From: Gemmatimonadota bacterium
GTDB lineage: Bacteria > Latescibacterota > UBA2968 > UBA8231
Reading direction: 5' to 3'
DNA length: 14,466 nt
Assembly: GCA_002712305.1 (NCBI GenBank)
Contig: PATE01000140.1
Coordinates: 1-14,466, forward strand
A program made the position numbers and the translations under genes. Positions within the stretch are counted from its first letter, which is position 1. Each line of letters opens with the position of its first letter. The notes under the pieces are model-generated. The model did not search any database, was not told the DNA's origin, and worked only from the letters and a program-made list of their open reading frames with translations. Shown here piece by piece: positions 5,659 through 7,382 of the stretch.

Positions 5659-6810
5659 ATGTCCCTCATCCGAAACGTCAGGATCATCGAGGGCGGCACC
5701 GCAGTCGCCGTCGAGTGGGACGGGCAGGCGCCAAGCCGGTTTCACGCGATCTGGCTTCGCGACAATGCGCCCGACGCTGAGACCCGCAGTGCCGCTAATG
5801 GACAGCGGCTGATCACGCTCTCCGATATCCCCGCAATGACCCGGATCGTCGAGGCAAGCATTGACCCGCATAGCGTGACACTCAGATTCGAGCCAGAGGG
5901 TAAGGTCGTTGAGTTCGCTGCAGAATCCTTGAAGCAACACGTCTACGATGCACCACGAAACCGGGCGTCGGGCTGGCTTCCCGATGCGGTTACACCCTTT
6001 GACCGAACCCTCGACTCCCAGACAGTCACAGCGCCCCTGACCACCTTGGAAAGTAACGCAAAGGAGTGCAAAGCCTGGCTTGCGGCCGTACGGCGGTATG
6101 GGTTTTCTTGCGCCACCGGCGGTCCGGTCGACTCGGGCGCCCTGCTGCGCGTGGTCGACCTTTTCGGCTATGTCCGGGAGACGAATTACGGTAAGTGGTT
6201 CGAGGTCCGCACAGAAGTCAACCCGACGAACCTTGCCTTCACCGGCCTGGGCCTGCAGGCCCACACAGACAATCCTTACCGAGACCCGGTGCCCACACTA
6301 CAGATCCTCTACTGCCTCGAAAACTCGGTCGTAGGCGGGGACAGCATTGTCGTCGACGGCTTTGCCTGCGCCTTGCGCCTGCGCGACGAAGCCCCGCGTG
6401 CGTTCGAGCTTCTGACGAACTATTGCGCGCGTTTTGAGTATCAGGGGCAGGACGGTGTGCATCTGTCCGCCCGGCGGCCGATGATCGAACTGGCCCCGGA
6501 TGGCGAGCTGCTCGGGATCCGATTCAACAACCGTTCGACTGCAGCGATCACGGACGTGCCATACGAGGATATGGCCGACTTCTACGCCGCTTACCGACGG
6601 TTTGGCGAAATCATCGATGACCCGGCGATGGCGGTTGGCTTCAAACTGGAGCCGGGCGAGAGTTTCATCGTCGACAATACCCGCGTCCTACATGCCCGCA
6701 AGGGCTATGCTGCAACCACAGGATCCCGGCGGCTCCAGGGATGTTACGCCGACAAGGACGGGCTGTTATCGACACTTGCCGTGCTGGAAGCCCAGGGAGC
6801 CGCCGCATGA
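5659..6810 (+). CDS. tmpA: 2-trimethylaminoethylphosphonate dioxygenase, TmpA-like (TauD/GBBH family)
   Basis: A 383-residue Fe(II)/2-oxoglutarate oxygenase of the gamma-butyrobetaine hydroxylase type. An N-terminal DUF971-like domain (about 1-100, [28 protein letters not shown]) precedes the double-stranded beta-helix core. Iron ligands are His202 and Asp204 in [20 protein letters not shown], and His345 in VLHARKGY. Arg357/Arg358 in GSRRLQGCY should hold 2-oxoglutarate. Characterised TmpA hydroxylates carbon 1 of 2-trimethylaminoethylphosphonate. The call rests on this architecture plus the following gene, a TmpB-like HD oxygenase joined by an ATGA overlap. The zinc-site cysteines of classical GBBH (DNCPCxxC) are replaced here (DNAPDAET). 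Without its partner it could pass for a gamma-butyrobetaine or trimethyllysine hydroxylase. No phosphonate transporter or regulator lies nearby. Confidence 0.8.
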
Positions 6811-7382
6811 CCGAGTTGACCCAGGACACCATCGTCCCCTTTCTGGCCGATATCTTCGCCCGCCGAGGTCACGAGGAATACCTTGGCGAAGAGGTAACCA
6901 TGTCGGCCCATATGCTGCAGGCTGCCCACTTCGCCGAAGCTGAAGGCCAGCGCGTTGAGATCATTGTTGCCGCTCTTCTGCATGACATCGGGCATTTCAC
7001 CTCCGAGTTCGGCAGCTTCACGATGAACGACACGGTCGACCGGCTGCACGAAGAGGCGGGCGCGACGGTTCTTGCGGAATTCTTCCCGAGCGTGGTGACC
7101 GACTGCGTGCGCGATCACGTGGCGGCCAAACGTTATCTTTGCGCCGTCGATCCGACGTATTTCGACGATCTGAGCGATGCATCGGTGCAGTCCCTGTCGC
7201 TGCAGGGCGGGCCGATGAACGAGGCGGAAGTGGCAGAGTTTGAGAAGCTGGAGAATACCCGCGATATCGTGCAGGTGCGGCTCTACGACGACCGGGGCAA
7301 GGTGCATGGCATGGAAGTGCCCGGGTTTGACCACTACCGGTCCATGGTGCAGGGAGTCGTGGACTCCCATCTGTCTACGTGA
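6807..7382 (+). CDS. tmpB: HD-domain diiron oxygenase, TmpB/PhnZ-like (1-hydroxy-2-trimethylaminoethylphosphonate dioxygenase)
   Basis: A 191-residue HD-domain protein of the same length as PhnZ and TmpB. The expected diiron ligands are all visible: His35 (MSAHMLQAA), His59-Asp60 (ALLHDIGHF), His81 (DRLHEEAG), His104 ([11 protein letters not shown]) and Asp161 (VRLYDDRG). Tyr25 and Glu28 (EEYLGEE) match the Tyr-xx-Glu gating pair of PhnZ. This group of mixed-valent diiron enzymes cleaves the C-P bond of a 1-hydroxy-phosphonate with O2. With a trimethylamino substrate the products are glycine betaine and phosphate. The start overlaps the stop of tmpA by 4 bp (ATGA), so the two should be translationally coupled. 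Alternative: a PhnZ-type enzyme acting on hydroxylated 2-aminoethylphosphonate. The TauD-type partner favours TmpB. Confidence 0.85.

Follow-up and report, generated by a model that had tools for sequence, protein, structure and literature searches.

The closest described counterparts of the gene pair considered here are TmpA and TmpB of Leisingera caerulea (PDB 6npb and 6npa), which were reportedly characterised by Rajakovich et al. in 2019. The same two-step logic is found in PhnY*/PhnZ, which act on 2-aminoethylphosphonate and of which PhnZ is homologous to TmpB, and gamma-butyrobetaine dioxygenase has its family, its cofactors and a quaternary-ammonium cage in common with TmpA. The tmp genes of L. 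caerulea have been described as a two-gene operon (PMC10574752), residues N187, N287 and R288 of TmpA have been reported to bind the phosphonate (PMC9296572), and the hallmark of TmpB-type enzymes is an H...HD...H...H...D diiron motif together with the Tyr and Glu of YxxE (PMC8177086). The window analysed here, a contig of 14,466 bases (C140) taken in its entirety, very probably carries a complete two-step oxidative phosphonate pathway as a two-gene operon that reached the host by horizontal transfer, with Proteobacteria as the most likely source. The pathway itself is already known, and the pair is an ordinary member of it in a new lineage. It resembles the L. caerulea system in its sequence (about 61-62% identity), in all catalytic and phosphonate-binding residues and in its two-gene operon, but differs in belonging to another phylum, in the absence of a LysR gene adjoining tmpA and in its PhyH and Gfo/Idh neighbours.

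Both genes lie on the forward strand. The first, tmpA (5659-6810, from the ATG at 5659 to the TGA at 6810), encodes a predicted Fe(II)/2-oxoglutarate 2-trimethylaminoethylphosphonate hydroxylase of 383 amino acids with TauD and GBBH-like_N domains in Pfam, an assignment based on the NF049936 model, identity to 6npb, active-site residues and the tree. The second, tmpB (6807-7382, ATG at 6807), encodes a predicted HD-domain diiron (R)-1-hydroxy-2-trimethylaminoethylphosphonate oxygenase of 191 amino acids with the Pfam domain HD, assigned by the NF049941 model, identity to 6npa and the metal ligands. These open reading frames and domains bear out the preliminary description, which had reported a TauD/GBBH-type gene and an HD oxygenase gene overlapping by ATGA. 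The stop/start overlap occupies positions 6807-6810 (forward strand) and may couple the translation of the two genes. Read directly from the sequence, a putative ribosome-binding-like, purine-rich stretch lies 5' of tmpA (5644-5652, forward strand), and tmpB is preceded by a similar putative stretch. A promoter scan returned nothing exceeding chance.

The window TmpA matches the TmpA equivalog model of NCBIfam over its full length (NF049936, 562.1 bits against a cut-off of 400), and its best PDB match with phmmer is 6npb (E 4.7e-146, compared to 7e-47 for BBOX). When aligned, it is 61.2% identical to 6npb over 371 columns and 27.8% identical to human BBOX. The Fe(II) ligands His-X-Asp...His and the 2-oxoglutarate Arg are kept, as are Asn187, Asn287 and Arg288 (numbers in the PDB chain are larger by 6), and the quaternary-ammonium cage positions remain aromatic. 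In the TmpA tree, the window copy falls within a 12-member clade that includes L. caerulea TmpA (support 100/99), and within an inner set of 11 that excludes a Hyphomicrobiales copy (support 100/96), with human BBOX and other GBBH-like proteins outside the clade. That the enzyme is instead a gamma-butyrobetaine dioxygenase of carnitine biosynthesis that merely neighbours an HD oxygenase appears very improbable. The corresponding model, TIGR02409, is closely approached without being passed (401.8 against 414.75), the aromatic cage positions and both Asn residues are common to the window TmpA and BBOX, and the title of the TmpA/TmpB discovery paper states that both enzymes had previously been misannotated; nevertheless, the TmpA model is passed by 162 bits, the protein is far more similar to TmpA than to BBOX and groups in the TmpA clade, human BBOX has alanine at the position of Arg288, and the gene overlaps tmpB, while gamma-butyrobetaine dioxygenase is not paired with an HD oxygenase.

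The window TmpB in turn matches the TmpB equivalog model over its full length (NF049941, NCBIfam) with 314.3 bits against a cut-off of 300, a narrow margin that is not unique to this copy, as another TmpB, of proteobacterial origin, scores 317. Its best PDB match is L. caerulea TmpB 6npa (phmmer, E 2.2e-73; PhnZ, 2e-34), to which it is 62.4% identical over 189 aligned columns. The preliminary description had noted a complete set of diiron ligands and the Tyr-xx-Glu pair, and all of these positions indeed align with those of TmpB and PhnZ. The PhnZ/Phn-HD model TIGR03276 is not passed (195.3 against 214.6), and in the TmpB tree the window copy belongs to a set of 16 (starred) together with L. 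caerulea TmpB, with PhnZ and the HD proteins of relatives outside it. Conservation of YxxE, homology to PhnZ and the ability of PhnZ enzymes to accept several (R)-hydroxyphosphonates (PMC10574752) are compatible with a pair acting on another phosphonate, either 2-aminoethylphosphonate, in the manner of PhnY*/PhnZ, or methylphosphonate, like the Gimesia type. Such a specificity is nonetheless highly unlikely, given that identity to PhnZ, an enzyme with another substrate, is just 37.7%, the hydroxymethylphosphonate (HMP) dioxygenase model of NCBIfam is not passed (158 against 300), and the window TmpA gives no match to the model for methylphosphonate hydroxylase of the Gimesia type and still has aromatic cage positions.

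Since the trees contain few GBBH sequences and their outgroups are long-branched, the identity of the pair as TmpA and TmpB rests mainly on model scores and residues. Both equivalog cut-offs are passed, the phmmer matches to the solved enzymes lie well outside anything expected by chance, both proteins are 61-62% identical to these enzymes and retain their residues, and in database comparison and trees alike they group with TmpA and TmpB, away from GBBH dioxygenase and PhnZ, in agreement with what had been proposed. From this homology we infer both the catalytic activity and the substrate in the host. TmpA would hydroxylate 2-trimethylaminoethylphosphonate at C1 with Fe(II) and 2-oxoglutarate to give the (R)-1-hydroxy compound, and TmpB, as a mixed-valent diiron HD oxygenase, would use O2 to cleave the C-P bond, yielding the glycine betaine and phosphate that the preliminary description had anticipated.

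As the window is the whole contig, the visible neighbourhood comprises only 5.6 kb before the pair and 7.1 kb after it. The neighbours encode PhyH, Gfo/Idh/MocA, BNR-like and Zn-dehydrogenase proteins, which agrees with the earlier picture of a pair standing among PhyH and sugar-type genes, and the open reading frames of the window, together with Pfam and NCBIfam searches, revealed neither a transporter nor a LysR gene, so that the pair is without a local transporter or regulator, as had been stated. Divergent from tmpA, a lipoprotein-like gene on the reverse strand (4017-5530) has FN3-like and NHL-like parts, recognised by eye, across several frames, and is likely a frameshifted pseudogene or the product of assembly errors. 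On the other side, also on the reverse strand, lies a 562-amino-acid protein with two PhyH stretches (7412-9100), one part of which weakly resembles methylphosphonate hydroxylase (47 bits against a cut-off of 500). PhyH genes are very abundant across the host lineage.

Ten comparison loci carry both genes (L001, L002, L004, L009, L010 and L092-L096), and five of them are located on plasmids. In L002, L004 and L093-L096, tmpA is flanked by a divergent LysR gene akin to the L002 copy; in L092 a lysozyme gene intervenes and the LysR gene stands at a distance of about 2 kb. A likely importer adjoins tmpAB only in L001, where it consists of an NMT1/SsuA-like binding protein, a permease and an ATPase. 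It had been supposed that tmp clusters come with an ABC transporter and a LysR regulator; of the ten loci, six have the divergent regulator but only one the likely importer. Because nine of the ten loci are without a likely adjacent importer, a missing neighbour transporter is usual rather than odd, contrary to the initial impression, whereas a tmpA with no LysR gene beside it is less common, though it occurs elsewhere too. The closest copies by tree path, on plasmids of Phyllobacterium, Rhizobium lusitanum, Labrenzia, Aliiroseovarius and Pseudorhodobacter, likewise have no dedicated importer adjoining, but unlike the window most of them have a divergent LysR gene. The occurrence of the pair in the window points to spread of the two enzyme genes on their own, with neither transporter nor regulator, and the window pair was probably acquired lacking the LysR gene frequently seen with tmpAB. 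In L009 (by Pfam) and L010 (by eye), DAO/GCV_T-type proteins are encoded near tmpAB, presumably enzymes of a type that removes methyl groups from glycine-betaine derivatives.

Within the host phylum, a TmpB above the NF049941 cut-off is present in this genome only (1 of 64), while HD matches of any strength occur in 26 of the 64, and TmpA-like matches in 59 relatives reach at best 35% identity over partial length. The nearest tmpAB copies are proteobacterial and several are plasmid-borne; among the alphaproteobacterial plasmids with tmpAB, that of Aliiroseovarius is typed as mobilizable (MOBP), and a gene with a ParB domain lies nearby. The contig itself is native to the host genome. On one flank, the 489-amino-acid protein at 1517 has kin of 60-63% identity in the host genus and family, and on the other the PhyH protein at 11816 has nearly full-length kin of 69-79% identity in the genus, family and class. 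In addition, the tetranucleotide profile of the contig correlates with that of the other contigs at 0.957, compared to 0.39-0.76 for six proteobacterial loci in the same search. Although the contig is short (14.5 kb) and comes from a draft genome with an estimated contamination of 2.4%, close kin on both flanks and host-like tetranucleotides thus argue against contamination, and it is scarcely conceivable that mis-binned proteobacterial DNA has produced both the lineage assignment and the apparent transfer.

A single carrier in the phylum and proteobacterial, plasmid-borne nearest copies, on a native contig, make horizontal acquisition the most likely origin of tmpAB, and movement as a two-gene cassette, suggested in the preliminary description, fits the same pattern. 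The donor was probably a proteobacterium, a direction of transfer that we infer from nesting and sampling and that depends on few non-proteobacterial tmpAB sequences. GC content and codon use of tmpAB show no clear departure from the host, therefore the transfer was not recent or the donor was of similar composition. For insertion boundaries by synteny, no relative sharing the neighbourhood was present among the loci compared. Of these findings, the most informative is the transfer to a new phylum, which extends the tmpAB pathway to a group with no other sampled carrier.

The substrate would enter via an unlinked transporter, and the rest of the genome was searched accordingly, with absences being soft because the genome is 90.9% complete. 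A search for phosphonate-type ABC transporters elsewhere in the genome had been proposed, and no clean phosphonate importer emerged. The one good match to PF12974, a PhnD-like binding protein on contig C93, was rejected as a phosphonate importer, as it is of the selenate type (TIGR04553, 386 against 250; PhnD model, 121 against 261) and lies beside selD, which is directly followed by the putative selenate-type ABC transporter (L049, 11101-14251). The only PF04069 (OpuAC) match, an ABC protein on C129 with fused permease and binding domains, has a binding part resembling ProX and EgtUC (EgtU), and the next gene is the ergothioneine gene egtD (TIGR03438, 370 against 291), which makes it doubtful as an obvious uptake route. 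PF12974 by itself would mislabel a selD-linked selenate-type ABC as phosphonate uptake, and neither such matches nor egtD-linked OpuAC matches in genomes of this kind should be read in this way. Ergothioneine and hercynine are, however, trimethylammonium compounds, and some cross-uptake by the egtD-linked ABC may therefore be possible. There is a small chance that trimethylaminoethylphosphonate is imported by a transporter so far unlinked to phosphonates, such as this betaine-type ABC acting as a broad trimethylammonium importer, and that the cassette alone would then confer growth on this compound. BCCT, SBP_bac_6 (AepX/AepS, PhnS type) and PBP_like_2 had no matches in the genome, and for GlpT-type antiporters it gave weak general MFS matches, none above the cut-off.

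The suggestion that the phosphonate is made otherwise found no support either. No PEP mutase (PepM) was detected in the genome, where the family matches are PrpB (methylisocitrate lyase, above its model cut-off) and a protein judged PanB-like by eye, and there is thus no sign of a self-made phosphonate. A second HD oxygenase, on C71, was rejected as a TmpB, being below the cut-offs, and its MFS-HD-mnmA order recurs in another genome from the host family. This HD-oxygenase-like gene (L048, 2404-5398) and that of L052 share the MFS-HD-mnmA order and have a loop one residue shorter (Y-GE), and in L056 an HD gene is also found beside an mnmA-like gene.

Several related loci were seen alongside. 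TmpB-like HD genes with no TmpA found within the locus occur in L003, L005, L006, L007 and L008, from alphaproteobacterial MAGs including SAR116; that of L005 scores 278 bits, slightly below the cut-off, and a CoxG-like gene adjoins in L005-L007. The Pseudomonas aeruginosa plasmid pF045_1 (L099) carries a LysR gene with a TauD-type dioxygenase and HD pair in which N187 is replaced by D and N287 by P, perhaps a tmpAB-like pair for a different substrate. In L011 (5635-8001), an MFS transporter and a TmpA-like dioxygenase share a single open frame of 788 amino acids, possibly a transporter-enzyme fusion, with an HD oxygenase adjoining. Finally, L012 (5477-9373) and L013 (about 5400-9366) combine a GlpT-like MFS protein, a TmpA-like enzyme (354 against 400 bits in L012, with R288 kept), an HD oxygenase (196 against 300) and a methyltransferase that, among solved structures, is matched best by phosphoethanolamine N-methyltransferase (E 1e-28), an arrangement that might serve the import of 2-aminoethylphosphonate, its N-methylation and then its cleavage.
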